64,000 bases of DNA from Bradyrhizobium erythrophlei (GTDB lineage Bacteria; Pseudomonadota; Alphaproteobacteria; Rhizobiales; Xanthobacteraceae): NCBI RefSeq assembly GCF_900129505.1, contig NZ_LT670818.1, positions 5,427,001 to 5,491,000 on the forward strand, given 5' to 3'. The position numbers and the translations under genes were made by a program. Shown piece by piece: positions 11,177-41,350 of the stretch. Position 1 is the stretch's first letter. Each line of letters starts with the position of its first letter. Under the pieces are notes generated by a model. That model ran no database searches. It was not told the DNA's origin and worked only from the letters and a program-made list of their open reading frames with translations.

Positions 11177-11259
11177 GCGCACAAGCCGGACATCGCGTGC
11201 CGGTGCCAGTGCGGGCCGCGGCGTCGATCCAGTCCATCCTCGAGCGGCGGAGTGATCGA

Positions 11260-20045: not shown

Positions 20046-20048
20046 ACG

Positions 20049-20953: not shown

Positions 20954-21228
20954 GTTACCCTCCGAAATTGTTTTAGGAATAAGGGTGAGGCTATCAGCGC
21001 CACCGGACGCATTCAACGGGGAGGTTTCAAGCGGGCCAATGCGCACACCTCTTGCTGGCACAAACCGAACCAGCCGGGCCGGTTCGTTGATGTCCGTTCC
21101 TCGGGATAGGCCGGAAGTGGCGTTCGGAGTCGGTGAGCACCGGTTTTGACCCAACGCAGGTATTCAACGCTTGGATATCTCCCTTAAAGGTTCTACGTTG
21201 TAGTGATATACAGCAGAGGCACGCACCG

Positions 21229-22116: not shown

Positions 22117-22127
22117 AAGGAATTGGT

Positions 22128-22793
22128 ATGAACATTCGGCTTCTGGACTCATCGGCAAGGTCAACCTGGGATCCATTACTGGCAACTGGACTCCTTGCGG
22201 TGTTCATGGCGACCGCAGCAATGAGGGTCGATGCGCAACAATTAGTGCCATTTGGCGACGTCCCGGCGACCGGTAATTTTTCTGAGGCAGAGATCGCTAC
22301 TCGGGGACGACAGCCAGATCGCCCGCTAACGTACGCGCCGTGGCGCAAGGTGTGTTTCAAGGCCACCCAAGAGACCGGGTCGAAAATGGTTTGTCGCACG
22401 ACCATCAACGGTAGATGGGACACGGGTCAGATTGCACTCAGAGTCGATCTGATCGAACGAGAGGGCGATTCCGTTGCTCGTCTGCAGATTTTCGTGACCC
22501 CCGGATCATTCCTGCAGCCCGGCATCAAATTGACTGTTGACCAAGGCTCGCCCTTGCAAATCCCCTATGTCATTTGTCTCACTAATGGTTGCGTAGCCGG
22601 AAGTGTAGCGAATGCAGGCCTGGTTCATGACCTGGAGTCAGGTCAGATGCTGGTCTTGGAGACCGTTAATTCCAATGTCGTGGGTGTAACCACCTCGCTG
22701 CCGCTCAAGGAGTTTGCCAAAGTTTACCAGGGGGCACCGGCGCAACTGTTTGAGCAGAGGCTTGAAGGAGATTGGGAACAATTGGGTCGATGA
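22128..22793 (+). CDS. Invasion-associated locus B (IalB) family protein
   Basis: The product is an exported protein with a hydrophobic N-terminus ending VDAQQ. It has the IalB pattern: WRKVCF, MVCRTTINGRWDTGQIALRV, then LQIFVTPGSFLQPGIKLTVD, and a cysteine pair in VICLTNGCVAG. The family occurs widely in alphaproteobacteria with unclear function beyond its Bartonella namesake. ATG 22128 has AAGGA seven bases upstream; the ATG at 22113 overlaps the preceding stop and is the alternative. Confidence 0.82.
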   Translation: MNIRLLDSSARSTWDPLLATGLLAVFMATAAMRVDAQQLVPFGDVPATGNFSEAEIATRGRQPDRPLTYAPWRKVCFKATQETGSKMVCRTTINGRWDTGQIALRVDLIEREGDSVARLQIFVTPGSFLQPGIKLTVDQGSPLQIPYVICLTNGCVAGSVANAGLVHDLESGQMLVLETVNSNVVGVTTSLPLKEFAKVYQGAPAQLFEQRLEGDWEQLGR

Positions 22794-23257
22794 AGCGTGC
22801 CACGTTCAAGTTGCGCCGGGCTTCGGCTTAGTCGTCGGCTTGATCGACCGATCCACCAGCCGAACATCCAACAGGCGCGGCTGTAGCCGCGAGAGTCCAC
22901 AAGTGGCACTTTTCGGACCTCGTGCGATGTCCGACATGAGTCCGTTATGCGCAGCAAAGCGGACGCTGGCTATTTCGAACCTGTTGCCTGGTCCGAGTCG
23001 CGCAAATCCGCTGGGCGCTATTGAAGCTTGTAACGGGCTAACATCATTGCGAGCCAAAGGCTCGGTGCGAAGCGCCGCCCGATGACAGGCTTCGCGAAGC
23101 AATCCATCGCGCGACAAGCAAGAAAGTATGGATTGCTTCGCTACGCTCGCAATGACGGTTCCAACCGACGTGCATAATTCCCGCGGCTCCCGTCCTATGG
23201 GCATACGGGGAAGCCCTGTTGGCAACGCACACGGCGCTCCCTGAACTTGCGTTTATG
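22794..23257. other. Intergenic region with a REP-like element
   Basis: No supported gene is seen. The left part contains fragments such as GGACCTCGTGCGATGTCCGAC that look like degraded repeat sequence, and the right part holds the REP-like palindrome at 23044-23156. It separates the accessory genes from the formate dehydrogenase operon, which ends at 23258 on the other strand. Confidence 0.5.
23044..23156. repeat. REP-like palindromic element, copy 2
   Basis: It runs from ATCATTGCGAGCC to CTCGCAATGAC with inner arms GAAGCAATCCAT and ATGGATTGCTTCGC. It matches copy 1 at 19009-19122 almost throughout, including the GCGAAGCGCCGCCCGATGAC segment, but differs in the loop. Confidence 0.85.
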
Positions 23258-23482: not shown

Positions 23483-24302
23483 GGACGGCTCCTTCCGCGG
23501 CAGTCTCGGCGACAATTCGCGTCGCATGTGTAAAAACCTCAAAGCCGTCGGCGCGGGCGATGGCGGCCAGCGTAATGCCGGCGGCGTCCGCCATCCGCAC
23601 CGCCAGCGCGGTCGGCGCGGAGACCGCGACCATCAGCGGTGCGCCCATGGCGGCGGCCTTCTGCACCATCTCGACCGAGACGCGGCTGGTCAAAAGCACC
23701 ATGCCGTCGCCGGCGGCGACCTTGCCCTGCGCCAGCGCGCCGGCGAGCTTGTCGAGCGCGTTGTGGCGGCCGACATCCTCGCGAAGGGCAGCGATGCCGC
23801 GTCCCGGCATCCAGAACGCCGCCGCGTGCACCGCGCGGGTTTCGATGTTGATGGTTTGGAGCGGGGCGATGGCCTGCATCGCGGTCATGATCTGTTGTGG
23901 CGAGAACGACCGGCCTTGCCGGACGATCGCGGCGGGACGAACCGCCTCCGCGATCGAATCGATGCCGCAGATGCCGCAGCCGGTGGGACCCGCGATATGC
24001 CGCCGCCGCTCGTTCAGCCGGTTTGCCAGCGAAGGTTCCAGCCACATCCGCAGCTCGATGCCGTCGTCGAGAGGCACGATATCGAGCGAACGGATATCAT
24101 CAGGGGATTGCACGATGCCTTCGCTGAGGCTGAATCCAATTGCAAAGTCCCGCAGGTTTTGCGGCGTGCCCATCATCACGGCATAGGTGCCGCCGTTGTA
24201 GGTCGGGGCCAGCGCGGTCTCCTCCGGAATCGTGCGCAGGCCCTCGCTGGTGCCGCTCTCGCGCCAGACCTGACGGCTAACCGTGTGTACGGGGGCGTGC
24301 AT
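23472..24302 (-). CDS. fdhD: Sulfur carrier protein FdhD
   Basis: FdhD transfers sulfur from a cysteine desulfurase to the molybdenum cofactor of formate dehydrogenase, a step required for activity. The CXXC sulfur-shuttle motif is GCGICG (Cys109 and Cys112). The nucleotide-binding C-terminal region includes REDVGRHNALDKLAG and TSRVSVEMVQKAA. It lies 5 bases after fdsA in the same operon. Confidence 0.95.
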   Translation of the reverse strand: MHAPVHTVSRQVWRESGTSEGLRTIPEETALAPTYNGGTYAVMMGTPQNLRDFAIGFSLSEGIVQSPDDIRSLDIVPLDDGIELRMWLEPSLANRLNERRRHIAGPTGCGICGIDSIAEAVRPAAIVRQGRSFSPQQIMTAMQAIAPLQTINIETRAVHAAAFWMPGRGIAALREDVGRHNALDKLAGALAQGKVAAGDGMVLLTSRVSVEMVQKAAAMGAPLMVAVSAPTALAVRMADAAGITLAAIARADGFEVFTHATRIVAETAAEGAVHVA

Positions 24303-24307
24303 GTCGG

Positions 24308-27184
24308 CTACTCCGCGGCTTCCACCGGCCGTGCGATGCGCCGGGAATGGCGGGCCTGCTCGTCATAGGCCTTCTGCCAGTCCGATGGACCGTTCGAGGG
24401 CGAGATCTGCACCGCCGTGACCTTGTATTCCGGGCAATTGGTCGCCCAGTCGGAATATTCCGTGGTGATGACGTTGGCCTGCGTGTCCGGGTGATGGAAG
24501 GTGGTGTAGACCACGCCGGGCGCGACGCGGTCGGTGATCAGCGCGCGCAGGGTGGTTTCGCCGGCGCGGCTGGCCAGCCGCACCCAGTCGCCGTCGCGCA
24601 CGCCGCGCTGCTCGGCGTCGTGCGGGTGCATTTCGAGCAGGTCTTCGCTGTGCCAGACCACGTTTTCGGTGCGGCGGGTCTGGGCGCCGACATTGTACTG
24701 GCTAAGGATGCGTCCCGTCGTCAGCAGCAGCGGATACCGTGGGCCGGTGCGCTCGTCGGTCGGGATGTACTCGGTGATGACGAACTTGCCCTTGCCGCGG
24801 ACGAAGCCGCCGATATGCATCACCGGCGTTCCCTCCGGCGCCTTCTCGTTGCAGGGCCACTGCACCGAGCCCAGCTCTTCGAGCTTGGCGTAGGATACGC
24901 CGGCGAAAGTCGGCGTCAGCGCCGCGATCTCGTCCATGATTTGCGACGGGTGATCGTAGTGCATGTCATAGCCCATCGCCTTGGCGAGGCGGATCGTCAC
25001 TTCCCAGTCTGCCAGGCCATTGCGGGGCGTCATCACCTTGCGGACGCGCTGAATACGGCGTTCGGCGTTGGTGAAGGTGCCGTCCTTCTCGAGGAAGGTC
25101 GACCCCGGCAGGAATACATGCGCATAGTTCGCGGTCTCGTTGAGGAAAAGATCATGCACGATGACGCATTCCATCGACGACAGCGCCGCCACCACATGCT
25201 TGGTGTTGGGATCGGACTGCAGGATGTCTTCGCCCTGCACATAGAGGCCCATGAAGGTGCCTTCGATCGCGGCATCGAACATGTTGGGAATGCGCAGGCC
25301 CGGCTCCGGGTTGAGCTTGACGTTCCACATCGCCTCGAACTGATCGCGCACCGCGTCGCCGGAGATATGGCGATAGCCGGGAAGCTCGTGCGGGAACGAG
25401 CCCATGTCGCAGGAGCCCTGCACGTTGTTCTGGCCGCGCAGCGGGTTCACGCCGACGCCGGGCCGGCCGATATTGCCGGTCGCCATCGCAAGGTTGGCAA
25501 TCGCGATGACGGTGGTTGAGCCCTGGCTGTGTTCGGTGACGCCGAGGCCGTAATAGATCGCGCCATTACCGCCGGTGGCGAACAGCCGCGCCGCGGCGCG
25601 CAATTCCTTCGGCTCGACGCCGGTCATGATCGCGGTCGCCTCGGGGCTGTTCTTCGGCAGCGACACGAATGCCGCCCAGTCCTGGAATTCGCTCCAGTCG
25701 CAGCGTTCGCGCACGAAGGCTTCATCGACGAGGCCTTCGGTGACGATGACATGGGCCAGCGCCGTCAGCACGGCGACGTTGGTGCCGGGCATCAGGGGCA
25801 AATGGCTCGCCGTGAGGTGCGGCCCTTCCACCATTTCGGTGCGTCGCGGGTCGACCACGATCAGCTTGGCGCCCTGGCGCAGCCGCTTCTTCAAACGCGA
25901 GGCAAACACCGGATGCGCGGCCGCCGGATTGGCGCCGATGATCATGACGACGTCGGTATGTTCCACCGAGTCGAAATCCTGAGTGCCGGCCGAAGTGCCG
26001 AAGGTCGTCGACAAGCCGTAGCCGGTCGGCGAGTGGCAGACCCGGGCGCAGGTATCGACATTGTTGTTGCCGAAGCCGCCGCGGATCAGCTTCTGCACCA
26101 GATAGGTTTCTTCATTGGTGCAGCGAGAGGAGGTAATTCCGCCGACGGCATCGCGGCCGTATTTTTCCTGGATGCCCTTGAACCTGGCTGCGGCGAAGTC
26201 GAAGGCTTCGTCCCACGTCACCTCGCGCCAGGGTTCGGCGATGTCGTCGCGGATCATCGGCTTGAGGATCCGCTCCTTGTGGGTGGTGTAGCCCCAGGCG
26301 AAGCGGCCCTTGACGCAGGAGTGCCCACGGTTGGCCTTGCCGTCCTTGTAGGGCATCATGCGCACGACTTCCTCGCCGCGCATTTCCGCCTTGAACGTGC
26401 AGCCGACGCCGCAATAGGCGCAAGTGGTGACCACCGAATGCTCGGGCTGGCCGATCTCGATGACGGATTTTTCGGTGAGCGTCGCGGTCGGGCAGGCCTG
26501 TACGCAGGCGCCGCAGGACACGCATTCGGAGCCCAAAAAGCTTTCGCTCATGCCGGGCGAGACGCGGCTGTCGAAGCCGCGGCCGGAAATGGTCAGCGCA
26601 AACGTGCCCTGCACCTCCTCGCAGGCGCGGACGCAGCGCGAGCAGACGATGCATTTGGAGGGATCGTAGGTGAAATAGGGGTTGGATTCGTCCTTCGGCA
26701 TCCAGGCATCGTTGGCCGCGCCGCCTGCTTTGGCGAACACGTGATTCTCGCCCTCATAGCCGTAGCGTACGTCGCGCAGGCCGACCGCGCCCGCCATGTC
26801 CTGCAGCTCGCAGTCGCCATTGGCCGCGCAGGTCAGGCAATCCAGCGGATGGTCGGAGATGTAAAGCTCCATCACGCCCTTGCGAAGTTTTTTCAATCGC
26901 TCGGTCTGGGTGTGGACCACGAGGCCTGCCATAGCCGGCGTGGTGCAGGACGCCGGCGTGCCGGCGCGGCCCTCGATCTCGACCAGGCACAGGCGGCAGG
27001 AGCCGAAGGCGTCCACCATGTCGGTGGCACAGAGTTTTGGGATTTGCGTGCCGGCCTCCATCGCCGCGCGCATGATCGAGGTGCCCTCGGGCACCGTGAC
27101 GCTCTGGCCATCGATGGTCAGCGTCACCATGGCTTCGGATCTGGAGCGCGGGGTGCCGAAATCGGTTTCCTGGATCAGCGACAT
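24308..27184 (-). CDS. fdsA: NAD-dependent formate dehydrogenase, alpha (molybdenum) subunit
   Basis: This catalytic subunit oxidises formate to CO2 at a bis-MGD molybdenum centre. In order: a [2Fe-2S] domain (Cys52, 63, 66, 80), a His-Cys3 cluster (His112, Cys116, 119, 125), two ferredoxin clusters (CIVCSRCVRAC and CVSCGACVQAC), a further [4Fe-4S] motif CAYCGVGC and the molybdopterin domain. The Mo ligand is the cysteine in ARVCHSPT, so it is a Cys, not selenocysteine, enzyme. ATG 27184 follows AAAGGAGA; earlier in-frame sequence is fdsB overlap, not protein. Confidence 0.96.
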   Translation of the reverse strand: MSLIQETDFGTPRSRSEAMVTLTIDGQSVTVPEGTSIMRAAMEAGTQIPKLCATDMVDAFGSCRLCLVEIEGRAGTPASCTTPAMAGLVVHTQTERLKKLRKGVMELYISDHPLDCLTCAANGDCELQDMAGAVGLRDVRYGYEGENHVFAKAGGAANDAWMPKDESNPYFTYDPSKCIVCSRCVRACEEVQGTFALTISGRGFDSRVSPGMSESFLGSECVSCGACVQACPTATLTEKSVIEIGQPEHSVVTTCAYCGVGCTFKAEMRGEEVVRMMPYKDGKANRGHSCVKGRFAWGYTTHKERILKPMIRDDIAEPWREVTWDEAFDFAAARFKGIQEKYGRDAVGGITSSRCTNEETYLVQKLIRGGFGNNNVDTCARVCHSPTGYGLSTTFGTSAGTQDFDSVEHTDVVMIIGANPAAAHPVFASRLKKRLRQGAKLIVVDPRRTEMVEGPHLTASHLPLMPGTNVAVLTALAHVIVTEGLVDEAFVRERCDWSEFQDWAAFVSLPKNSPEATAIMTGVEPKELRAAARLFATGGNGAIYYGLGVTEHSQGSTTVIAIANLAMATGNIGRPGVGVNPLRGQNNVQGSCDMGSFPHELPGYRHISGDAVRDQFEAMWNVKLNPEPGLRIPNMFDAAIEGTFMGLYVQGEDILQSDPNTKHVVAALSSMECVIVHDLFLNETANYAHVFLPGSTFLEKDGTFTNAERRIQRVRKVMTPRNGLADWEVTIRLAKAMGYDMHYDHPSQIMDEIAALTPTFAGVSYAKLEELGSVQWPCNEKAPEGTPVMHIGGFVRGKGKFVITEYIPTDERTGPRYPLLLTTGRILSQYNVGAQTRRTENVVWHSEDLLEMHPHDAEQRGVRDGDWVRLASRAGETTLRALITDRVAPGVVYTTFHHPDTQANVITTEYSDWATNCPEYKVTAVQISPSNGPSDWQKAYDEQARHSRRIARPVEAAE

Positions 27185-27198
27185 GGTGATCTCCTTTG

Positions 27199-28755
27199 TT
27201 ATTCCGCGGCTTCGAGCCGCGTCGGCGCGGGGCCGAAATCTTCCCGAAAATGCTTCAGGGCGCTCATGACGGGGTAGGGCGTGAAGCCGCCGAGCGCACA
27301 GAGCGAGCCGAACTTCATGGTGTTGCAGAGGTCTTCGACCACACCGATGTTTTCCGCCACGCGGTCGCCGGCGCGAATCTTGTCGATCGTCTCGACGCCA
27401 CGCGTGGAACCGATCCGGCAAGGCGTGCACTTGCCGCAGGATTCGATGGCGCAGAACTCCATGGCGAAGCGGGCCTGGCGGGCCATGTCGACGCTGTCGT
27501 CGAACACGACGATGCCGCCATGGCCGATCAGGCCGTCGCGGGCGGCAAACGCTTCGTAATCGAACGGCGTGTCGAACAGCGCACGCGGGAAATAGGCGCC
27601 GAGCGGCCCGCCGACCTGCACCGCGCGGACCGGGCGCCCGGTAAAGGTGCCGCCGCCGATATCGTCGACCAGTTCGCCGAGGGTGACACCGAACGCGGTC
27701 TCGAACAGGCCGCCATACCGGATATTGCCCGCAAGCTGGATCGGCATGGTGCCGCGCGAGCGTCCCATGCCGAACTCGGCATAGGCCTTGGCGCCGCCGG
27801 CGAGGATGAAGGGGATCGTCGCGAAGGACAGCAAATTGTTGATGACGGTCGGCTTGCCGAACAGGCCCTTGTGCGCGGGCAGCGGCGGCTTGGCGCGGAC
27901 GATGCCGCGGCGGCCTTCCAGGCTTTCCAGCATCGAGGTTTCCTCGCCGCAGACATAGGCGCCGGCGCCGACCCGGACTTCCAGATCGAAGCTGTGATGG
28001 GAGCCGCCGATGCGCTCGCCGAGATAGCCAGCGCGCCTAGCCGCCTGGATCGCGGCGTTCATGGCCGCCACGGCATGCGGATATTCCGAGCGGACGTAGA
28101 TGTAGCCCTTGCCGGCGCCGACGGCGATGGCCGCGATCGTCATGCCTTCGATCACCACGAAGGGATCGCCCTCCATGATCATGCGGTCGGCGAAGGTGCC
28201 GCTGTCGCCTTCGTCTGCGTTGCAGACGATGTATTTGCGGTCGGCGGAAGTCTGCGCCACGGTCTTCCACTTGATGCCGGTGGGGAAACCGGCGCCACCG
28301 CGGCCGCGCAGGCCCGAGGCAGTGACGTCGGCGATAATGGCATCCGGCGTCAGTTCCAGCGCCCGCTCGAGGCCCTTAAAACCCTGATGGGCGCGGTAAT
28401 CCTCGACCGAGCGGGGATCGACCACGCCGCAGCGGGCGAAGGTCAGGCGGGTCTGGCGCTTCAGCCAGGGAATATTCTCGGTGACGCCGAGCCGCAGCCG
28501 ATGCGGGCCGTCGGTCATGACAGCCTCGAGCACGGCAGATGCGTCGGCCGGGGTCAGAGGACCGAACGCGACACGGCCTTGCGGGGTTGCGACTTCGACC
28601 ATCGGCTCCAGCCAGTACAGGCCGCGCGAGCCGGTCCTGACGATATCGACGGCAACGCCGCGTTGTGATGCCGCCTGTTCCAGAGCGACCGCCACTTCAT
28701 CGGCGCCGACCGCAACCGCGCCGGCGTCGCGAGGGATGAAAATCCGTAAATTCAT
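27199..28755 (-). CDS. fdsB: NAD-dependent formate dehydrogenase, beta (NAD/FMN) subunit
   Basis: FdsB passes electrons from the alpha subunit to NAD+. At 518 residues it resembles a fused NuoE/NuoF-type protein: an N-terminal thioredoxin-like part, then the NADH/FMN motifs GRGGAGFPTGIKW and GAGAYVCGEETSML and a [4Fe-4S] motif ESCGKCTPCRIG. ATG 28755 overlaps the fdsG stop by four bases. The gap to fdsA is 14 bases. Confidence 0.96.
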   Translation of the reverse strand: MNLRIFIPRDAGAVAVGADEVAVALEQAASQRGVAVDIVRTGSRGLYWLEPMVEVATPQGRVAFGPLTPADASAVLEAVMTDGPHRLRLGVTENIPWLKRQTRLTFARCGVVDPRSVEDYRAHQGFKGLERALELTPDAIIADVTASGLRGRGGAGFPTGIKWKTVAQTSADRKYIVCNADEGDSGTFADRMIMEGDPFVVIEGMTIAAIAVGAGKGYIYVRSEYPHAVAAMNAAIQAARRAGYLGERIGGSHHSFDLEVRVGAGAYVCGEETSMLESLEGRRGIVRAKPPLPAHKGLFGKPTVINNLLSFATIPFILAGGAKAYAEFGMGRSRGTMPIQLAGNIRYGGLFETAFGVTLGELVDDIGGGTFTGRPVRAVQVGGPLGAYFPRALFDTPFDYEAFAARDGLIGHGGIVVFDDSVDMARQARFAMEFCAIESCGKCTPCRIGSTRGVETIDKIRAGDRVAENIGVVEDLCNTMKFGSLCALGGFTPYPVMSALKHFREDFGPAPTRLEAAE

Positions 28756-29228
28756 CGCTGCGCCTCCGCCACCAGCGCATCGATGCGCGCTTCGTCCAGC
28801 CGTCCGACGACCCGGCCGTCCAGCATCGCCGACGGTGCCGTCGCGCACAGGCCGAGGCAGTAGATCGGCTCCAGCGTCACGCGGTTGTCGGCCGTGGTAT
28901 TTCCGATTCCGATGCCGAGCTTGGCTTCGGCGCGCGCGGCCAGCGCATCGCCGCCGGCGGCCTGGCAGGCCTCGGCGCGGCACAGTTTCAGCACGTGCCT
29001 GCCGGCCGGCTCGCGGCGGAAATCGTGGTAGAAGGTAAACACACCGTGAACTTCGGCGCGCGATAAATTCAAGGCGGAGGCGATCATGGGAATGGCCGGC
29101 TCCGGCACATAGCCGAAGGCTTCCTGCAGCGCATGCAGCATCACCAGCGTGGCGCCTTCGAGATGCGTGTGTTCGGCAATGATTTCAGCGCCGCGCGCCG
29201 CATCCCAGGGTTCGTAAACGGCTGTCAT
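28752..29228 (-). CDS. fdsG: NAD-dependent formate dehydrogenase, gamma subunit
   Basis: This NuoE-like [2Fe-2S] thioredoxin-fold subunit has 158 residues and cluster ligands Cys83, Cys88, Cys124 and Cys128 (LCRAEACQAAGG and IYCLGLCAT). It is the first gene of the fdsGBA-fdhD-fdsD operon, with the LysR-type gene divergent upstream. Confidence 0.95.
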   Translation of the reverse strand: MTAVYEPWDAARGAEIIAEHTHLEGATLVMLHALQEAFGYVPEPAIPMIASALNLSRAEVHGVFTFYHDFRREPAGRHVLKLCRAEACQAAGGDALAARAEAKLGIGIGNTTADNRVTLEPIYCLGLCATAPSAMLDGRVVGRLDEARIDALVAEAQR

Positions 29229-29477
29229 TCCTGCGTCTCGCTGAACGTCAAACTAAGAACGAATGAAAGTTGGAAAACCTCAAAAGATCAATAAAGCAGT
29301 CCCGTGCGGCGATACTGAAATGCAATCAATAGGCGTATGAAATCGAACGATATGAAAATACAATCAGCTGCGCGGCAGCCGTCAGAAGCGGCGCCGCGCG
29401 CATCGGACGCGCCCCTTTGGCATACGTGTCCGGCGCGGACCGTGATATCTGTGGTGCTGGAATTGTGAGATGTCTTC
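29229..29477. promoter_or_regulatory. Divergent promoter region between fdsG and lysR
   Basis: This 249-base gap between divergent genes has an AT-rich centre (about 29315-29370) with repeated GTATGAAAT and ATATGAAAAT blocks. LysR regulators usually bind T-N11-A sites in exactly this position. The exact site cannot be fixed by eye. Confidence 0.5.
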
Positions 29478-30371
29478 GTGATCGACAAGCTTGAACTGCT
29501 GCTGGCTCTGGCCAAAGAGCGTCACTTCGGACGCGCCGCGGAAGCCTGCGGCGTCACCCAGCCGACGATGTCGACCAGCCTCAAGCAGCTGGAAGAAATC
29601 CTCGGCGTCATGCTGGTGCAGCGCGGCTCGCGGTTCCAGGGCTTTACCCCGGAAGGCGAGCGCACCCTCGACTGGGCCCGCCGCATCGTCGGCGACGCCC
29701 GCGCCATGAAGCAGGAAATCAACAGCCTGAAGGACAAGCTATCGGGCGAGATCCGGATCGCGGCGATCCCGACCGCGCTTGGCATGGTGGCGTCGCTGAC
29801 GACGCCGTTCCGCGGGCGCTATCCCGACGTGCGCTTTCGCATCCAGTCCTGCACCTCCGCCGACGTGCTGGGCTTGTTGGAAAATCTCGAGGTCGATGCC
29901 GGGCTGACCTATATCGAGAACGAGCCGATCGGCAGGGTCCGCACCATCCCGCTCTACAACGAGAGCTACCGCCTGCTGACCTCGCCCGACGCCATGTTCG
30001 GCGATCGCGACGTCGTCACCTGGAAGGAAGTAGGGCAGGTGCCGCTGTGCCTGCTGACGCCCGACATGCAGAACCGGCGCATCATCGATCGCGCGCTGCG
30101 CTCGGTCGGCGCGGAGGCCACGCCGACGCTGACGTCGAATTCGCTGCTGGTGCTCTATACCCATGTGAAGACCGGACGCTGGGCCAGCGTGATGCCGGCC
30201 AAGCTCGCGGAAACGCTGGGCCTCGCCGATAAGGTGCGCAGCATTCCGATCGTCGATCCCGAGGTCAATTACAGCATCGGGCTGGTGGTTCCGCAGCGCG
30301 ATCCGATGACGCCGCTGATTGCGGCCCTGACCCAGGTCGCGCGCGAAGTCGCCCCGACGCTGGAGAGCTGA
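29478..30371 (+). CDS. LysR-family transcriptional regulator, probably of the fds operon
   Basis: The N-terminal winged HTH (DKLELLLALAKERHFGRAAEACGVTQPTMSTSLKQLEE) is followed by a periplasmic-binding-type effector domain (from about residue 92). It is divergent from fdsG with a shared promoter region, the usual arrangement for a regulator and its target. The effector is likely formate or a related acid, which is inference from position. The start is GTG 29478. Confidence 0.9.
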   Translation: MIDKLELLLALAKERHFGRAAEACGVTQPTMSTSLKQLEEILGVMLVQRGSRFQGFTPEGERTLDWARRIVGDARAMKQEINSLKDKLSGEIRIAAIPTALGMVASLTTPFRGRYPDVRFRIQSCTSADVLGLLENLEVDAGLTYIENEPIGRVRTIPLYNESYRLLTSPDAMFGDRDVVTWKEVGQVPLCLLTPDMQNRRIIDRALRSVGAEATPTLTSNSLLVLYTHVKTGRWASVMPAKLAETLGLADKVRSIPIVDPEVNYSIGLVVPQRDPMTPLIAALTQVAREVAPTLES

Positions 30372-30376
30372 GCGCT

Positions 30377-32701
<2,325 letters not shown>

Positions 32702-32920
32702 GCCTTAAGCCCCCTCGGATACTTGCTTGCATCCTGTTCGGAAGGACCCCAGTCCCTTTCCGAATCAAGGCGATTTGAATCCAGTTTTCGCGGGCTGTCG
32801 AGAGTCAACAATTCCTTAAATCAAATAAAACTTGTCCAGCGAGAATCGCAGCCCCGAAATCTCCGCCGAAATGCCTGCCAGACGAGTCCGAAACGGGAAC
32901 GCGTGACGTTCGGATTGAGC

Positions 32921-34300
32921 TCAGGCGTCGGGCGGCTCGGCGTGACTGATGACGCGCTTCACGGTCGGAAACGCGCGGCGCAGCGCGCGCTCGATCGCGT
33001 CGACGTTCTCGTGGACCTTGATCACGCTCATCGAGGGCGCGGCGCGGCAGTGGAAATTGACGATTTCGCCAGCGTCGGTATCGCGCACCCGGACGTTATG
33101 GATGTCGTGGATCGCGGTATCGGCGGCGTAACGCGACAGCGCGCTCTTGATGGTTTCGACGCGGTCGGCCGCGGCATCGGTGCCGTGCGGCAATCCCGGC
33201 TCCAGCGGTTCGATGTGGGTATCCACCTCGACATCCTCGCCGAACTCGTCGCGGATGTTCCGTTCCAGCTCCTGGGCGATGTCGTGGGCGGCGTTGAGGG
33301 CCATCTCGCCGTCGACCTCGAGGTCGATCGAGACGGTGAGCTTGTCGCCGAGATCGTGCACGGTGACATGGTGGATGGCGAGACCGGAGTTGCGCGCGAT
33401 CACCATGATGCGTTCGCGCACGCTCTCATTGTCGCGCGCGACCGGCACGGCGGTAAACGTCAGGTCGGCATCGTCGAGCGCTTTTTCGACCGCGGCCTGC
33501 GCCTTGCGCTTGATCTCCTCGACGCGGTCGATCGGAAAAGTGCGGGGAACCTCGACGATGGCGTCGATGAAATGGGTCGCGCCGACCATCCGCACCCGCA
33601 GGCGTTCGACGCCGACCACGCCGGGCACCGACCGGATGGCGGCGGTGGCTTTCTCCGACGCGCCCTCGGGCGCGCGGTCGAGCAGGGTCTCCACCGTCGA
33701 GCGCGCCATCCGCAGGCCCAATAGCGCGATCATGACCGCGACGGCGATGGCGGCGGCGGCGTCGCCCCAGGCATAGCCCAGCGCGGAAAGCGCAAGGCCA
33801 ACGATGACCGCGATCGAGCCGAGCACGTCGGAGGCGAAATGCAGCGCGTCGGCGGCGAGCGCCTGGCTCTTGGTGTCGTGCGCGGTACGATGCAACGCCC
33901 GGGCGCGCCAGAAATTCACGGCGATGTCGATCAGCAGGACAACGAACGGGATCGCCGAGATGGTCGGCGGCGGCGCGCCTTCGCGCAGCCGGCTCCAGGA
34001 TTCCACCAGAATGCCGCCCGCCAGCACATAGAGCAGGGCGATGACGCCGAGCGCCGAGATGCTTTCGAACTTGCCGTGGCCGTAATGATGTTCCTCGTCG
34101 GCGGGGCGGTCGGAGACCCGCACCACCATCCAGGTGATGATGGTCGCCACCACATCGACCGACGAATGCAGCGCCTCCGAGATCAGGGCGAGACTGCCGA
34201 TGGCGATGCCGACCACGAATTTGGCCGCGGCCATGCCGGCGCTGGCAAAGACCGAGATCGCCGCGACGCGGGCTTTGAGGGTGTGGGCGGGTTCGCTCAT
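32921..34300 (-). CDS. Cation diffusion facilitator transporter
   Basis: The product is a CDF-family exporter of divalent metals such as zinc, manganese or iron. Six membrane helices (about residues 12-200) hold metal-site motifs SEALHSSVDV and ADALHFASDV. A long cytoplasmic region (about 210-459) contains two dimerisation-like segments, longer than the usual single one. ATG 34300 begins the conserved part; sequence upstream in frame is a REP-like repeat. Confidence 0.9.
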   Translation of the reverse strand: MSEPAHTLKARVAAISVFASAGMAAAKFVVGIAIGSLALISEALHSSVDVVATIITWMVVRVSDRPADEEHHYGHGKFESISALGVIALLYVLAGGILVESWSRLREGAPPPTISAIPFVVLLIDIAVNFWRARALHRTAHDTKSQALAADALHFASDVLGSIAVIVGLALSALGYAWGDAAAAIAVAVMIALLGLRMARSTVETLLDRAPEGASEKATAAIRSVPGVVGVERLRVRMVGATHFIDAIVEVPRTFPIDRVEEIKRKAQAAVEKALDDADLTFTAVPVARDNESVRERIMVIARNSGLAIHHVTVHDLGDKLTVSIDLEVDGEMALNAAHDIAQELERNIRDEFGEDVEVDTHIEPLEPGLPHGTDAAADRVETIKSALSRYAADTAIHDIHNVRVRDTDAGEIVNFHCRAAPSMSVIKVHENVDAIERALRRAFPTVKRVISHAEPPDA

Positions 34301-34423
34301 GGGCGGCGGTTTAGCAGCCCGTCCGTTAACATCAAGCGCCGATCTCAGGCGCAATCGCCACTCACTTGCAGCAGCGGTTTGAGCACGCGCGATTTGTTGC
34401 GAATTGTTCCGAATTAAGGGCTC

Positions 34424-34510
34424 GTCATTGCGAGGAGCGACAGCGACGAAGCAATCCATTCTTCCTTTTGCGCGGAAGAATGAATTGCGTCGCTTCGCTC
34501 GCACTGACGC
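34424..34510. repeat. REP-like palindromic element, copy 3 (shorter)
   Basis: It starts GTCATTGCGAGGAGCGAC and ends GCTTCGCTCGCACTGACGC, with inner arms GAAGCAATCCATTCTTCC and GGAAGAATGAATTGCGTCGC. It is shorter than copies 1 and 2 and lacks the GCGCCGCCCGATGAC segment. Confidence 0.75.
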
Positions 34511-34542
34511 GGCTTCCATTGAATACAGCCCCGCGATCTCGC

Positions 34543-35035
34543 GGCGCGATGCGCCCGAGGTTTTGAAAAATCATTCGCCCAAAAAGTGAGAGGGCGCAGG
34601 GAATGCCGGGTGCTCGCTGCACCCGCGGTCTCGTGCGCAAAACTGTGCAGAAAACGCACACGAGCATACAGGTACAGACGGGGGCATCCCGACATTCCCT
34701 GCGCAATGGTCTTACGGCTTATATCGTGATCTCCCCGGAGAATCGGGCTTGCTTGCCTCCGTCGCCTTCGGATTGAGGCCCTCCGCGCCCGGTCGGGCCG
34801 ACAGACCTCCGAAGACTTGACGCCAACCATTGAGGCGTCAGGACCACACGGTTTTGCCGTACGCAACAGCGCCGGTCGTCTGCGCGCTGTGTTCGCTCAC
34901 GGACCGAAGCCCGCCCTGCCAACACGACACGCGCCCGACGCTGCCGCGTCCACCGCATCCCGCCCCAACGTTCGTGACGATGGCCAACGCCCCTCTAAGC
35001 GGGACGGGATGGCGAGCGATATAGTTTTGATTTGC
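34543..35035. repeat. Long dispersed repeat, copy 2 (about 490 bp)
   Basis: This copy shares with 19171-19580 the ordered blocks ATGCGCCCGAGG, GGAATGCCGGGTGC, GCAATGGT, CTCCCCGG, ATCGGGCTTG, ACTTGACGCCAACC with GAGGCGTCAGGACCACAC, and CGTGACGAT. It carries an extra internal segment (about 34755-34800). Like copy 1 it follows a REP-like element directly. Confidence 0.8.
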
Positions 35036-35208
35036 CCGACGGCGAAAGCGAAATATTTTTAATTCTGGGGCTTGACGCGATTTCTGAAAATCCGAATTGA
35101 TTTGCCCGTCGGGCTAGATCTTGTGGTATGTGGCACGACAGAGCAGCGCGACGTCCGGGTATTGTGTCGCGCTGCCCTCACGTCGCATGCGCTCATACGG
35201 GCTCTCGC

Positions 35209-35637
35209 TTACCGCCTGCGTCCACGTCCAACCGTCTTTCCCACGATGCGTTTCACCCGACCAGCTAGCTTTTCCGGATTATTCTTAATGTCATGCTCCC
35301 AGAAGCGGATGACTATCCATCCCTCGTCCCGCAACGCCGCCGCAACTCGCTCGTCCCGCGCCCTGTTTTTCCCGATTTTTGTTTTCCAGAAAGAAGCATT
35401 CGTTTTGGGGCTCACGCTGTGGTGCGGACAGCCGTGCCAGAAGCAGCCGTCACAGAACACGGCCACGCGGGACCCTGGGAAGGCAATATCGGGCCGTCCC
35501 GTCACGCTGTGGTGCAGGCGGTACCGGAGACCCGCAGACCAGAGGGCCCGACGCAGGATCAGTTCGGGCTTGGTGTCTTTCCCCCGTATCCGCGACATAC
35601 AGTGGCTTCTTTGCCGCGGTGTCAAAACATCCATCAT
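35209..35637 (-). CDS. vsr: Very short patch repair (Vsr-type) endonuclease
   Basis: Vsr nicks DNA at T:G mismatches made by deamination of 5-methylcytosine. The product has 142 residues with the family motifs: MSRIRGKDTKPELILRRALW, catalytic RPDIAFP, zinc-site CDGCFWHGCPHH, and WKTKIGKNRARDERV. ATG 35637 has GGAG five bases upstream. It is divergent from the cytosine methyltransferase by 76 bases. In many methyltransferase loci Vsr is a repair partner; here it could also be a nuclease effector. Confidence 0.95.
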   Translation of the reverse strand: MMDVLTPRQRSHCMSRIRGKDTKPELILRRALWSAGLRYRLHHSVTGRPDIAFPGSRVAVFCDGCFWHGCPHHSVSPKTNASFWKTKIGKNRARDERVAAALRDEGWIVIRFWEHDIKNNPEKLAGRVKRIVGKTVGRGRRR

Positions 35638-35713
35638 CCGGCTCCATTTAGTACCTGGTCAGGCCGAATCGGACCTGGTAGCCTGGCCCGCGTTCGTAGG
35701 ATGGGGCGCGCGA
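35638..35713. promoter_or_regulatory. Short divergent promoter region between vsr and dcm
   Basis: Only 76 bases separate the two divergent starts. This space must hold both promoters and ribosome binding sites. GGAG precedes vsr, while the dcm side has AGGATGGGG about 9 bases before its ATG. No clear -10/-35 pair stands out. Confidence 0.45.
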
Positions 35714-36661
35714 ATGACCAGGACTCTTGACATTTTCAGCGGCGGCGGCGGCAGCAGTTACGGCGCTCGCAACGCCGGAGCAGAAATTGTCTGCGGCATC
35801 GACCTTTGTGAAGTGGCCACCGCCACTTATAAAGAGAATTTTCCAGAAGCCACCACGATCACAAAAGCCCTGGAGAACATCAACCCCAGAAAGCTTCACG
35901 ACTCTATCGGCGACATCGATCTGTTGCTGGCGTCGCCGGAATGCACCAACCACACATGCGCCAAGGGTTCTGCCCCAAGGTCCGAACAGAGCCGCGCCAC
36001 GGCTATGCAGGCCCTCCGTTTCGCCAAGGAGTTCAAGCCGCGCTGGCTGATCCTTGAAAACGTCGTTCATATGAGGCCGTGGTCCCGCTACGGCGAACTC
36101 AAGGAAGCGCTGGAAGACCTCGGCTACAACGTGTCGGAATTTGTGCTCGACGCCTCGGATTTCGGGGTCGCCCAGAGCCGCCGCCGGCTCTTCGTTGTCT
36201 GTGACCTCGAAGACGGAGTGGAGGAAATCAAACGCCCACGGCGCACACGCAAGGATGTCACCGACATTCTGGATCCCCCTGGAAAGTGGGGGACAACAAG
36301 CCTCTACAGTCCGAAAAGGGCCAAGCCGACTCTGGAGCGGGCCGAAAGAGGGTTTGCCGAAATGGGTAAACGTGCGAGCTTTCTGCTCGTCTACTACGGA
36401 ACAGATGGCGGTGGCGGGTGGCAGCGTCTGGACCGTCCTTTACGCACTATAACGACGGTTGACCGTTTCGCCCTGGTCGAGCCGGGCGATGACGGCCATC
36501 AGATGCGCATGCTACAGGTACCGGAACTGAAGCGCGCCATGGGCTTCAAAACCGACTACATGATGAACCACGGCACGCGGCGGGAGAATATCAAGATTTT
36601 CGGCAATGGAGTCTGTCCGCCCGTGATGGAGGCGATTGTCGAGACGATAACTTCAGGATGA
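35714..36661 (+). CDS. dcm: DNA (cytosine-5) methyltransferase
   Basis: The 315-residue product contains the C5-methyltransferase motifs: motif I DIFSGGGGSSYGARNAG, motif IV with the catalytic cysteine in SPECTNH, motif VI LENV, motif VIII QSRRRLFVV and motif X GNGVCPPV. Motif IV reads PEC in place of the usual PCQ, a variant form. The target recognition region between VIII and IX is short. ATG 35714 begins motif I; an in-frame opening reaches back to 35072 but runs antisense across vsr. Its last four bases overlap the next gene. Confidence 0.93.
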   Translation: MTRTLDIFSGGGGSSYGARNAGAEIVCGIDLCEVATATYKENFPEATTITKALENINPRKLHDSIGDIDLLLASPECTNHTCAKGSAPRSEQSRATAMQALRFAKEFKPRWLILENVVHMRPWSRYGELKEALEDLGYNVSEFVLDASDFGVAQSRRRLFVVCDLEDGVEEIKRPRRTRKDVTDILDPPGKWGTTSLYSPKRAKPTLERAERGFAEMGKRASFLLVYYGTDGGGGWQRLDRPLRTITTVDRFALVEPGDDGHQMRMLQVPELKRAMGFKTDYMMNHGTRRENIKIFGNGVCPPVMEAIVETITSG

Positions 36662-38769
36662 CCATGGCCGTTACGGCGCGAAAGAAATCCGGCAGTGAAA
36701 AACTGATCTTCAAGGTGCGGCCGCGCCTGCTCACCCTTCTTGGCGATCAGCTTATCAAGGACGCCAATCTCGCGGTCTTTGAACTTGTCAAAAACGCATA
36801 TGATGCGGACGCCACAGTTTGCGCTGTCACGCTTGAACATCCCACCGATCAGTCAAAGGCGCGTATCACCGTTGAAGATGACGGTGTCGGGATGGACGAA
36901 GAAACGTTGCGCGACGTATGGATGATGATCGCCACTGACTTCCGCGCCTTGCAGCGTAAGGAGGATAGGCGGACGAAGAAATTCAATCGCTTTCCGCTCG
37001 GGGAAAAGGGTCTTGGGCGGCTTTCGGCGCACAAGCTGGGGCGTTCGATCAAGCTGATCACACGCAGACGCGGGGGCGAAGAACTCGTTCTTGATTTTGA
37101 TTGGGACAAGATCGAGAGCGCGGAAGACCTGGAAAGCGCCGGTATTGAGCTGGAGGTCCGCGACCCGAAGACATTTACCGGCAACGGGCACGGTACGTGT
37201 TTTGAAATAACACGGTTGAGAGAGACCTGGAGCCGCGGCCAGGCACGACGCCTTCACCGCGCGGTCAACAGCCTTTGTTCACCTTTTAAGGGACCCGAAG
37301 ATTTTGAAGTCATGCTGTCCATCCCCGGTCACGAGGAATGGCTCAAGAATCTTTTTACCGCCGAGGATGCCAACAAGTGCGCCCTCTATCACATACGGGG
37401 ATCGTTCGAGGCAAAGTCCGGAACGTTTGACTACACATTCACACCTCCACCCGGCCATTCAAAGCAGCTCACGAAAGCGACAGAAAAGGGGAAGGAGGTC
37501 GCACTTCAGAAGAAAGTTGAGAACAGCAGAAAGAGCGAAGCGCTCGACCTTTCAAAGCACAAGATCGGCAAAGTGAGTTTCGACTTCTGGCTCTTTGACC
37601 GCGATCCCGCGGTGCTGGGCGATGTGACTGATGACGTGAGAGGCCTCAAAGACTACCTCGATGAAAACGGCGGCATCCGGATTTATCGCGACGGCATCCG
37701 CGTCTATGACTTTGGAGAACCTGGAAATGACTGGCTCAACCTCGACCTCCGACGCGTCAACACCCCGACCGCACGCACCAGCAACAATCAGATTCTAGGC
37801 GCATTATGGCTTGATGCGACCAAAAGCGGTGATCTGCGGGAAAAAACTAACCGCGAGGGTTTCATCGAGAATGACGCCTTTGAGGATTTCCGCGCGGCGG
37901 TCATAAGCATGCTGACCCAGGTCGAGGCGGAGAAGACCAAAGACCAACGAAGGTTGCGCGAAGTTCTGGGAAAAGGCACGGGAAAGCGGGTTTTCGCAAA
38001 ACTGGCAGAGGTCCGCGAAGTGCTGGAGCGGAAGGGCGTCCTGGCGGAGGTCGAGCCGAGGCTTCGGGAAGCGGAAAAAGAGATGGAAATCTACCGCGAC
38101 CAGCTTTTGCACGCAGCCGTTCCAGGCCTCTCAATCGGTATGATGCTGCACGGCGCAGAAAAGATTTTGGACGAGTTGCGGGCCGCAACGAACAAAGGTG
38201 CCAGCGCTGAGAAGATAAAGGGGCTCGTGGAACAGCTCTATCGCGCCATGCGTCCGGTTACAAATCTTCTCAAGAACCCGACCCCAGGAAAGACCTCGGC
38301 CAGTGTCCTGATCAAGGAGGCGATCTTCAGCGCGGAGTTTCGGCTGAAACGGCACCACATCATCCTGATAAACGGCATGGACAAGGGCTGTCTCGATTTT
38401 AGAGTCGAGGGCTCCAAACAGATGCTGATTGCATCGATCAACAACCTGATCGACAACAGCATTCATTGGCTGGAAACAAGAGACCCGAAGCAAAAGTACA
38501 TCTACATCGGTACGACAAAAGAAATTGAAGAGGGGCCCGCTATTGTCGTTGGGGACAACGGACCGGGATTTGGAAAGGACGACCCCGAAGACCTGACAGC
38601 GCCTTTCTTTACACGCCGTGCAGGCGGTATGGGTTTAGGTTTGTATATTGTGAGCGAAGTGATGCGCGTGAATAGAGGACGGATCGTTTTTCCCAGCGAC
38701 GGCGATGTCGAGCTTCCCGATCAGATCAGCGGAGCAGTCGTCGCCCTTCAATTTCTGGAAACACCATGA
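36658..38769 (+). CDS. Twin-GHKL ATPase: MORC/Hsp90-like domain fused to a histidine-kinase-like core
   Basis: The 703-residue product has two separate Bergerat-fold ATPase domains. The N-terminal one has FELVKNAYDADA (Glu42, Asn46), EDDGVGMD (74-80) and GEKGLGR (115-121), as in MORC/MutL/Hsp90-type proteins. The C-terminal one has INNLIDNS (Asn600), GDNGPGFG (from Asp633), and GGMGLGLYIV (656-665), as in histidine kinases. A helical segment before it (about 470-530) includes LSIGMMLHG with His498, a possible phospho-acceptor. No signal or membrane segment is present. It overlaps both neighbours by ATGA and probably works with them. Relatives occur in restriction-modification loci. Confidence 0.85.
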   Translation: MTMAVTARKKSGSEKLIFKVRPRLLTLLGDQLIKDANLAVFELVKNAYDADATVCAVTLEHPTDQSKARITVEDDGVGMDEETLRDVWMMIATDFRALQRKEDRRTKKFNRFPLGEKGLGRLSAHKLGRSIKLITRRRGGEELVLDFDWDKIESAEDLESAGIELEVRDPKTFTGNGHGTCFEITRLRETWSRGQARRLHRAVNSLCSPFKGPEDFEVMLSIPGHEEWLKNLFTAEDANKCALYHIRGSFEAKSGTFDYTFTPPPGHSKQLTKATEKGKEVALQKKVENSRKSEALDLSKHKIGKVSFDFWLFDRDPAVLGDVTDDVRGLKDYLDENGGIRIYRDGIRVYDFGEPGNDWLNLDLRRVNTPTARTSNNQILGALWLDATKSGDLREKTNREGFIENDAFEDFRAAVISMLTQVEAEKTKDQRRLREVLGKGTGKRVFAKLAEVREVLERKGVLAEVEPRLREAEKEMEIYRDQLLHAAVPGLSIGMMLHGAEKILDELRAATNKGASAEKIKGLVEQLYRAMRPVTNLLKNPTPGKTSASVLIKEAIFSAEFRLKRHHIILINGMDKGCLDFRVEGSKQMLIASINNLIDNSIHWLETRDPKQKYIYIGTTKEIEEGPAIVVGDNGPGFGKDDPEDLTAPFFTRRAGGMGLGLYIVSEVMRVNRGRIVFPSDGDVELPDQISGAVVALQFLETP

Positions 38770-40154
38770 TCAACCAACTCGCCTCGCCGTCGGTATGCGT
38801 AATCGATGATGATGAAAAAGACTATGTTCACATAGGTAACGCACTAAACGAGCTCTTTGTGAGCTTCATCTGGCTTTCAGGTGCCGTCGACCAACTGCCG
38901 GCACGGCCCTTTAACAGAGTTCAACTGGTGTTTCTTGATTTGCACCTGACGAGTTCGTTAGGCAAAGACGCCGCTTCTTACACCGCCAACGTTTTTACTA
39001 AAGTTGTTTCTGCCGATACCGCGCCCGTCGTCGTCGTCATCTGGAGCAAATACGCGGATGACAAAGTTGCCGAAGCCGGTGTTCCTCCTGAAGACCAGGA
39101 GACTGAAAGCGAATTGTTCAAGCGGACTTTGTTCGAGGCCGAGCCAAAATTCAAGAACAGGCTTATTTTTCTTGAAATGGACAAACCGAAGAAGGACCGG
39201 CCCGCCGACTGGAGCGACCGACTTCAAGAGGAGATCAAAACCGCGCTCGGTGACCAATCCGCCATCGGGCTTTTGTGGACGTGGGATGGCTTGGTCAAGG
39301 ATGCGAACGCGGCCCTTACGGCAAGCCTGACCGATCTTGCAGAGGAAACAGCGGGGGGCGCTGATACGCAACTGACCGACGGTCACTTGAAAGAAGTGCT
39401 TCAACGTCTGTCGAAAGCGCAAGGCGAGTCCGATCTATCGGAAACCACTGCTCCCGGTCACCTCGTGGCAATCCTTTCGCAGCTTCTGATGGATCAACTC
39501 GAACACGCGGGCGGGCGGCAGGCTCTTGCGGCTCATGGTGCTTGGCTCAACGCAACACCGGCCGGCAGAACCAAAGCCAGCGTCAGTTCGAAGATGAATG
39601 GTTTCCTTCTTACGGCCAGCTGTCCGGACGGTGCGATCCCGTATTTGCCAGGTACTGTTTATGTCGCAAACGACATTGGATCATTTCTCTCAGTGTTCGG
39701 TTCGGATCGGGAACATCTTGAAGAGACCTTCTGCAGTGTAACGCGATCTGCAACCAATTCGGCACAGATGGACGAGTGGTACGCCGCAGTTCGGCCGGTA
39801 CTGCTCGAAATATCGCCGGTCTGTGATGTTGCCCAGAACAAGAGGCGCAACGCGCGTCTTGTCGGAGGACTGGTTATCCCGGCTGCAAAAATCGGCGCGA
39901 TGAAAAAAGGCGGTGACGCCTGGATCGTTCTTCCGCCGGGGAAGGCAACCGTTGCCCTCAGATGGCCTTTAGACGGATTTGCAGCCGATGAAATCAAATT
40001 GGTTTTTCATCACAGCCTTAAGGTCACGCTGAACGCTGCCGCGGAACGGCAGTGGTTTTCACCCTGGTTCAGATTGCGCGAGCTGCCAACCACCGCGATC
40101 AGAAACCCGCACATGTCGCATGGATCGCGCGTGGGCTATGTTTCTGTCGCGTGA
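38766..40154 (+). CDS. Receiver-domain protein with large unknown C-terminus
   Basis: The N-terminal 125 residues or so resemble a receiver domain: acidic cluster IDDDE (14-17), candidate phospho-acceptor Asp58 in LVFLDLHL, Ser94 in VVIWSKYAD, and a Lys-containing loop EMDKPKKD. The remaining 330 residues match no domain I know; they contain a helical part (DANAALTASLTDLAEE, LKEVLQRLSKAQ) and a beta-rich end (WIVLPPGKATVALRWPL). No DNA-binding HTH is visible. The ATGA overlap with the kinase-like gene makes it the probable phosphorylation or binding partner. Base composition is markedly lower in GC than genomic neighbours. Confidence 0.75.
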   Translation: MINQLASPSVCVIDDDEKDYVHIGNALNELFVSFIWLSGAVDQLPARPFNRVQLVFLDLHLTSSLGKDAASYTANVFTKVVSADTAPVVVVIWSKYADDKVAEAGVPPEDQETESELFKRTLFEAEPKFKNRLIFLEMDKPKKDRPADWSDRLQEEIKTALGDQSAIGLLWTWDGLVKDANAALTASLTDLAEETAGGADTQLTDGHLKEVLQRLSKAQGESDLSETTAPGHLVAILSQLLMDQLEHAGGRQALAAHGAWLNATPAGRTKASVSSKMNGFLLTASCPDGAIPYLPGTVYVANDIGSFLSVFGSDREHLEETFCSVTRSATNSAQMDEWYAAVRPVLLEISPVCDVAQNKRRNARLVGGLVIPAAKIGAMKKGGDAWIVLPPGKATVALRWPLDGFAADEIKLVFHHSLKVTLNAAAERQWFSPWFRLRELPTTAIRNPHMSHGSRVGYVSVA

Positions 40155-40258
40155 CCCCCTCGCATCGCGTCCGCTGCACGCACCACGAAATTCCACTAGA
40201 TTGCGCTTATGACCGGTGTTGCCGAACCGATTTTGCAGGCGAAGGTCATGTATCTCCC

Positions 40259-41110
40259 TCACGGATTTCCCGCACCGGCCACTTCCACCTCGACCACATC
40301 AATACGCGACGATGACTTCCGTTGCCGCAGTTCTTCGTACGACGTCGCGGCGCTGAGGCAAAACAGCGTCCGCCGCTCGGGGCCGCCGAGCACGCAGGCG
40401 AGGGCGCGGCGGCCGGGTATTTCGATGCGCTGCAATTCGCGCCCCTCGCGGTCCAGCCGGATGAAGGCGTCTTCGTCGAAGGAGGCGACCCAAACGGCCT
40501 GCTTCTGATCGAGGCAAATGCCGTCGGGCGATTTCATGGTTCCGAAGCGGCGGCGAAAATTCAGGCCGCCGTCGGCCGCAATGTCATACTCGGCCAGGCC
40601 ATCGCCATCCATTTCGGCCACGACCAGCCGGTTGTTGTCCGCCGAAACCGCAATGCCGTTGGGAAACCGCAATCCATCCGCGACGACGCGGGCCGCGCCG
40701 TCGGGCATCACCAGAAGGAGGCGACCGACTGCGCCCCGATCCGGCGGCGGCGGTAAATCGAAACCGAGATCTCCGACATAGGCGCGGCCGAGGCCATCGA
40801 CGATCATGTCGTCGATGGTACCCGTCGCGATCCCTGACAGGTCGGCGTAGAGTGAGAGCTTGCCTTCGCTGTAAGCCAGCAGGCGCTTCCTAGACATGGT
40901 CAGCACGATGATGCTGCCGTCCGGCAGGACGCCGAGGCCGCACGGCGTGTCGTCGTCGAATTTCGCGTGCTGCTCGCATTCGCCTGACGGCGCGAGGCTC
41001 AGCAGCGTCCGCGCCATGCAGTCGACGAACCAGAGCCGGCCCGCGTGCCAGCGCGGACCTTCGAAATAACGTCCGCCGTCGTGTACGGTATTTGGCTTGG
41101 GTGAGGTCAT
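40259..41110 (-). CDS. SMP-30/gluconolactonase/LRE family protein
   Basis: A six-bladed beta-propeller lactonase of 283 residues. It begins with YFEGPRWHAGRLWFVD (metal ligand Glu in EGPRW), then PDGSIIVLTMSRKRLL, DDMIVDGLGRAYVGDLG, RFPNGIAVSADNNRLVVAE (Asn ligand) and SPDGICLDQKQAVWVA (Asp ligand). It is likely an esterase on sugar lactones; the substrate is unknown. ATG 41110 is chosen because upstream in-frame sequence is palindromic repeat. Confidence 0.88.
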   Translation of the reverse strand: MTSPKPNTVHDGGRYFEGPRWHAGRLWFVDCMARTLLSLAPSGECEQHAKFDDDTPCGLGVLPDGSIIVLTMSRKRLLAYSEGKLSLYADLSGIATGTIDDMIVDGLGRAYVGDLGFDLPPPPDRGAVGRLLLVMPDGAARVVADGLRFPNGIAVSADNNRLVVAEMDGDGLAEYDIAADGGLNFRRRFGTMKSPDGICLDQKQAVWVASFDEDAFIRLDREGRELQRIEIPGRRALACVLGGPERRTLFCLSAATSYEELRQRKSSSRIDVVEVEVAGAGNP

Positions 41111-41124
41111 CGTTGCGGTCGCCT

Positions 41125-41350
41125 TCGCTTCACCTCTCCCCGACGGGGAGAGGTCGATTTGCGCAGCAAATCGGGTGAGGGGACGCTGCTCTAACGAGAG
41201 ACCGTAACCCCTCACCCGGCGCGAGCTTGTGCTCGGACGGCGCGAAGCGCCGATCCGGGTGTGCCGACCTCTCCCGCCCAACTCGGGTTTACCCGAGTTG
41301 GGCGTCTAAAATCGTCGAAGTCGGATAAATCCGACTTCGATGGGAGAGGT
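41125..41350. repeat. Cluster of short palindromes
   Basis: Several perfect or near-perfect hairpins follow each other: CCTCTCCCCGACGGGGAGAGG, GATTTGCGCAGCAAATC, CCCAACTCGGG/CCCGAGTTGGG and GAAGTCGGATAAATCCGACTTC. The first and last parts (CACCTCTCCC and GGGAGAGGTGG) could close the whole region. It is a typical alphaproteobacterial intergenic palindrome cluster, sited upstream of two minus-strand genes. Confidence 0.75.

Follow-up and report, generated by a model that had tools for sequence, protein, structure and literature searches.

A Vsr, cytosine methyltransferase, MORC-kinase and receiver cassette of Bradyrhizobium erythrophlei as a possible methylation-aware defence module

Organization of the cassette

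The window analysed here, 64,000 nucleotides of the Bradyrhizobium erythrophlei contig NZ_LT670818.1, carries a cassette of four genes (Table 1). According to the original prediction, a Vsr gene is divergent from three genes that overlap each other by ATGA, and this was confirmed by the open frames and by an ATGA overlap at both plus-strand junctions (methylase/kinase and kinase/receiver). The divergent Vsr gene lies 76 bp from the methylase start, which was chosen by reading inside a longer open frame. The GC content of the cassette (0.56 in 35209-40154) is lower than that of the flanks (0.65 in 24000-34500 and 0.63 in 40300-64000), as predicted, and the repeats said to adjoin the island were found to the left of the four genes, as inverted repeats (at 34447-34492 and at 34594-34704) together with a direct pair of 16 nt (35027 and 35097). 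Direct repeats of at least 20 bp were not found within 34300-41300, and thus a long target-site duplication was not seen. The stretch 34420-35050, between a transporter gene and the cassette, combines inverted repeats with a repeat-like segment and is partly shared with relatives, and another stretch of low GC (0.53-0.58) is found at 20001-23000 of the window, some 13 kb upstream of the cassette.

Table 1. Features of the cassette, with positions counted from the first nucleotide of the window.
Feature	Position	Strand	Size	Remarks
Vsr-type very short patch endonuclease	35209-35637	-	142 aa	Open frame
Divergent intergenic stretch, probable promoter region (predicted)	35638-35713			Lies between both start codons
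C5-cytosine DNA methyltransferase	35714-36661	+	315 aa	Nearest PADLOC model DrmMII
MORC/MutL-type ATPase and DHp-CA histidine-kinase fusion	36658-38769	+	703 aa	
Codon of His498, predicted core His of kinase	38149-38151	+		From alignment
Receiver protein	38766-40154	+	462 aa	AlphaFold receiver fold, conserved Asp58
Codon of Asp58, predicted phospho-acceptor	38937-38939	+		Invariant in 22/22 diverse receivers
C-terminal output domain, residues 280-462	39603-40151	+		Cys353-Asp354 (39822-39827), Arg455-x-Gly457
Four-gene segment, missing from same site in relatives	35035-40257			From blastn flank limits and GC

Comparison by blastn with six relatives showed that left-flank similarity reaches 35012-35034 in three of them (L059, L092, and L093) and ends earlier in the other three, and that right-flank similarity begins at 40258-40259 in two (L059 and L092) and later in the other four; the extra piece therefore comprises little more than the four genes. 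Without the cassette, the transporter and oxidoreductase genes of the flanks are close neighbours in two relatives, one of them keeping a remnant of an SMP-30-like gene, and in the other relatives different DNA lies in between, where no cassette gene was matched at 1e-30. A search of 195 genomes of the genus found a clear receiver only in the genome studied here and in one broken copy, a third match (G332) being weak. In the broken copy (L027 of genome G369, 3754-11389) the receiver gene is cut by an IS21-type element and an IS110-type transposase lies upstream; no methylase match was obtained there, only a decayed remnant being read by eye. The cassette is rare and mobile. An enrichment of defence genes around the locus was not seen, since none of the eight tested neighbour proteins in the window had a PADLOC match and other families occupy the site in the genus. 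A defence hotspot was likewise rejected, as the ten proteins picked at this site in relatives, a subset of the genes there compared with Pfam only, all belong to transport, enzyme, cyclase/TPR, regulator or chaperone families.

Proteins encoded by the cassette

The Vsr protein matched PF03852 (2.1e-29) and TIGR00632 (145.7 bits, over its cut-off). The assignment of the next gene to the C5-methyltransferases is supported by matches to PF00145 (DNA_methylase, 1.4e-37, with a query that began six residues after the chosen start), to TIGR00675 (117.6 bits, over its cut-off) and to DrmMII of PADLOC (289 bits). No restriction-enzyme family was matched over its cut-off by any of the four cassette genes, and the REase_II models of PADLOC matched nothing in the cassette but the kinase's ATPase region (best 51 bits).

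The 703-aa protein was predicted to join an ATPase to a histidine-kinase-like core, and both halves are backed by Pfam matches (HATPase_c_3 at the N-terminus, 3.7e-24, and HATPase_c at the C-terminus, 2.1e-20) and by structure comparison. The MORC/MutL-type ATPase spans approximately residues 19-432, where the N-terminal GHKL ATPase and the following alpha+beta (S5) domain are present and the structure matches Morc3 and MutL, and the DHp-CA core spans approximately residues 485-703. The ATP sites are intact. The choice of His498 as the core His rests on alignment; His485 is also invariant (alignment A2, 23 kinase sequences), and the AlphaFold model of part of the stretch holding both has low confidence. 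In HisKA kinases, the acid following the core His acts as a general base. In all 120 nearest kinases, own included, the predicted core His498 is followed by Gly; among aligned sequences, His-Gly was found in all eight clade members, including the window protein, and His-Glu/Asp in 22 of 22 others and four of four more. Because a Gly and not an acid follows the core His in 120/120, phosphotransfer in this clade may be altered or lost, and since the clade keeps Asp58 of the receiver, it may signal with altered chemistry.

The receiver-domain assignment of the last gene was upheld by the AlphaFold model, which has a receiver fold over residues 8-165, though Pfam gave only a sub-threshold match (TetR_C_21, E 0.14). 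Thirty receivers were compared, of which 25 were treated as fused, and three short ones (L096, L112, and L117) and two with another C-terminus (L118 and L119) were set apart; the genes in L112, L113, L118, L119, L146, and L147 were called receiver-like by eye, from an acidic start and a central Asp. In alignment A5, which holds 22 of the 25 fused receivers at full length and not cut around the Cys-Asp motif, Asp58, Cys353 and Asp354 are the three invariant residues, and Asp58 is also invariant in alignment A1. The windows of alignment A6 and of the PemK comparison were cut around the Cys-Asp motif, and its invariance there is by choice. The Cys-Asp domain was present in 28 of the 35 receivers read, and all five short receivers are followed by a separate enzyme gene, of the MBL fold in four cases and HNH in one; the putative effector part is thus exchanged.

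Family profile searches recognised no catalytic family in the output domain, and sequences of the PDB matched the receiver with E 0.69 at best. Foldseek against the PDB with the whole receiver model, which returned mostly response regulators (PorX, RssB), did not identify the output domain, nor did a structural search of a viral library, in which the best matches were mainly receivers. Sequence comparison of the output domain with PemK families was negative, with an hhalign probability of at most 1.3 (several PemK rows being mis-cut or empty in one run, and rows of up to 80 aa and L120 dropped in the other) and with PF02452 not among the families matched by the 22 receivers at E 5. A search for stand-alone output domains gave 18 matches, and the six that were read look like N-terminally short receiver pieces. 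A search for further short-receiver loci added two plasmid loci and no new genome.

Conservation of the neighbourhood

A receiver profile search of the species genome collection found nine loci, by title from Nitrobacter, Taklimakanibacter, other Alphaproteobacteria, Gallionella, a Gemmatimonadetes genome and Streptococcus, two of which (L009 and L010) had identical scores and are probably near-identical. The order methylase-ATPase-receiver is kept in all nine, and a Vsr gene is present in eight, divergent as here in six, with no Vsr match in the Streptococcus locus L017. A kinase profile at E 1e-30 found 11 further non-own loci in samples of the class (385 genomes) and the phylum (398 genomes), which partly overlap and each include the own genome. 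A receiver-like gene adjoins the kinase in ten of these, the exception being L111, a broken locus close to the end of its contig, and a methylase lies near in nine, in two of them by weak matches (L112 and L113). These methylases are of the C5 type in L109, L110, and L115 (beyond the receiver in the first and the last of these), N6/N4 in L116, N6 in L117, and Eco57I-like in L118 and L119, showing that methylases of several classes occupy the same slot. A chance adjacency is rejected by the nine loci and by those of the class and phylum samples. In the neighbourhood search proposed with the original prediction, the kinase and receiver stay together, usually with a methylase, which supports this part of the prediction. 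No methylase was found near the pair in L114, where a second GHKL-type protein (734 aa, with a weak kinase-profile match) adjoins the pair on the opposite strand at 3637-5841. In L119 a Vsr-like gene (2389-2769) lies downstream of the receiver, and its occurrence beside an Eco57I-like methylase does not fit a Vsr used for m5C repair only.

Related kinases were also found on 65 plasmid records, all at less than 60% identity, of which 50 were typed conjugative. As 41 of the 65 come from Campylobacter, these records are not independent events. Eleven plasmid stretches were opened (ten of the 65 records and one from the short-receiver search), and every one has a receiver-like gene after the kinase. 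In gene tables that are incomplete, a methylase is listed in six (L062, L063, L065, L066, L096, and L146) and none is listed near the pair in L064, L067, L147, L148, and L149. Since none is listed on these five stretches and none was found in L114, the methylase is a frequent but not constant partner, clearly less constant than the receiver. Several plasmids carry toxin-antitoxin genes close to the pair. On a Rhizobium gallicum plasmid (L065, 9904-13705) the pair lies beside an annotated complete type II system (dcm, Vsr and restriction enzyme) and an HNH gene, and hence the pair does not necessarily stand in for a nuclease.

Relation to described systems

To call the system undescribed was too strong. 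A TCS-like pair found next to C5-methylases and Vsr, HEF_HK/Response_reg_2, has been in print since 2021 (PMC8011034), and MORC-like GHKL ATPases of restriction systems, with methylases and Vsr, appear in the accessible part of a paper from 2008 (PMC2292703). The Response_reg_2 model found three loci in 190 genomes of the class (L021, L022, and L023), each with the kinase followed by the receiver; a methylase match adjoins the pair in L021 and L022, and the kinase of L023 begins at a contig end. The cassette shares with this pair the kinase-receiver order, the succession of HATPase_c_3, DHp-like and HATPase_c domains, a C5-methylase upstream and a Vsr near, as well as the adjacent kinase gene (ATGA overlap) and the receiver Asp (D58 here), and the kinases of these three loci match the cassette kinases over 650 columns, almost their whole length (E 6.6e-37). 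However, at E 1 neither HEF_HK (PF19191) in the cassette kinase nor Response_reg_2 (PF19192) in the cassette receiver, or in those of L014, L015, and L017, was matched, and hhalign of the clade receivers against the three Response_reg_2 receivers, with three sequences on one side, gave a match of 20 columns only (E 0.052). The proteins also differ in length (kinase of 703 aa here as compared to 979-993 aa, receiver of 462 aa as compared to 525-647 aa in the three loci) and in the residue after the core His, Gly here and Glu/Asp there. Because the kinases match strongly, yet the Pfam models and receiver profiles do not, the sequence comparisons place the cassette as a diverged relative of this kind and not as a counted member.

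The paraMORC/MORC proteins of restriction systems, as described in the accessible part of PMC2292703, share the N-terminal GHKL ATPase with an alpha+beta domain and methylase and Vsr neighbours, whereas here the ATPase is joined to a complete kinase core and has a receiver as its partner, and no SFII helicase is found among the four genes. The Shedu protein VcSduA, which begins with a GHKL ATPase (paraMORC3) and protects against phages, resembles the present protein in that a domain of this kind is proposed to control a defence protein, but it carries a PD-(D/E)xK nuclease fused to it as effector, and the accessible part of the paper describes no kinase core, receiver or methylase (PMC12137116). 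The cassette methylase is closest to DrmMII of DISARM class 2; drmA, drmB, drmC and the other DISARM genes are absent from the cassette and the eight tested neighbours. The restriction enzymes BbrUII/HgiDII are similar to the ATPase region here (residues 25-203, 82 bits, family cut-off 550), the rest of the present protein being a kinase core instead. Detocs effectors are exchangeable, and Detocs is not known to include a methylase or a MORC-type ATPase. The PADLOC library of 2023, which perhaps lacks Detocs models, gave no match for the receiver and no Detocs match for the kinase. Detocs is a three-gene phage defence of the two-component type, and its best-described effector, in the accessible part of the source, is a PNP domain (PMC11249213).

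Interpretation

Our leading reading, held tentatively and at somewhat less than even confidence, is that the cassette is a methylation-aware module of defence gated by a phosphorelay. Its methyltransferase would mark self DNA, in line with the function of its family, and the MORC/MutL-like half, judging from its fold, may bind or clamp unmarked DNA and change shape on ATP. This change could cause the attached histidine-kinase core to signal to Asp58, as the conserved residues suggest, upon which the receiver would release the Cys-Asp/Arg-x-Gly output domain as an effector harming the invader or halting the cell. We propose an effector role for this domain because separate MBL-fold or HNH genes replace it. 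Vsr would repair T:G mismatches where methylated cytosines deaminate, as is usual for its family. A more general proposal, of which we are slightly more doubtful, is modular restriction without a restriction enzyme, in which a mark-sensing clamp-kinase signals through a phosphorelay to an exchangeable effector, with whichever methylase supplies the self mark; with equal reserve, the effector in such a scheme would be either the Cys-Asp domain fused to the receiver, conceivably a MazF-fold RNase, or a separate MBL-fold/HNH enzyme. Should this hold, a single immune switch would combine two-component signalling with the self-marking of DNA, and the output domain would represent a novel kind of effector, present in several phyla as well as on conjugative plasmids. 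A bacterial MORC-like ATPase would also gain a testable job, reading methylation and passing the result to a kinase; the MORC proteins of eukaryotes silence methylated DNA, whereas their bacterial counterparts are poorly understood (PMC8011034).

Two rivals to the defence reading are live, although we consider both unlikely. The pair could be a two-component system regulating transcription of the methylase or of a restriction system, with the receiver as regulator and the cassette controlling itself. Such pairs often lie beside methylases and regulation of this kind has been speculated (PMC8011034), and the divergent Vsr and methylase genes have the probable 76-bp control region in common; weak sub-threshold matches to TetR C-terminal families in three of 22 receivers (best E 0.037) point the same way, but no DNA-binding family was recognised in these 22. 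Moreover, MBL-fold or HNH genes replace the output part in all five short receivers, and the four genes hold no recognised restriction enzyme. With a similarly low probability, the cassette could serve selfish maintenance, where loss of the methylase would unmark the chromosome and the kinase-receiver pair would kill the cell, punishing the loss of plasmid or island. This does not sit well with a copy that is chromosomal here, with the one other clear copy in the genus being IS-broken and tolerated, or with the five opened plasmids on which no methylase is listed beside the pair, whereas the many conjugative records, though largely from Campylobacter, the nearby toxin-antitoxin genes and the fact that restriction systems can act so (PMC8011034) are in its favour; as its anatomy is the same as that of defence, context cannot separate the two. 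That Vsr itself is the nuclease, activated by the kinase-receiver pair in a MutL-like manner to cut unmarked DNA, is improbable, for although Vsr is present in eight of the nine receiver-profile loci and MutL works together with Vsr in short patch repair (accessible part of PMC2292703), Vsr forms its own transcription unit here, is not matched in the Streptococcus locus and, among nine loci with N6-type or weakly matched methylases (L066, L095, L096, L112, L113, and L116-L119), is matched in L119 only within the stretches covered.

Within the accessible parts of the openly licensed PMC literature, no paper testing such a pair in defence or describing the output domain came up. A related prediction may be in print, as the legend of predicted systems in the accessible part of the DefensePredictor paper names a HATPase together with a REC domain (PMC13092281).
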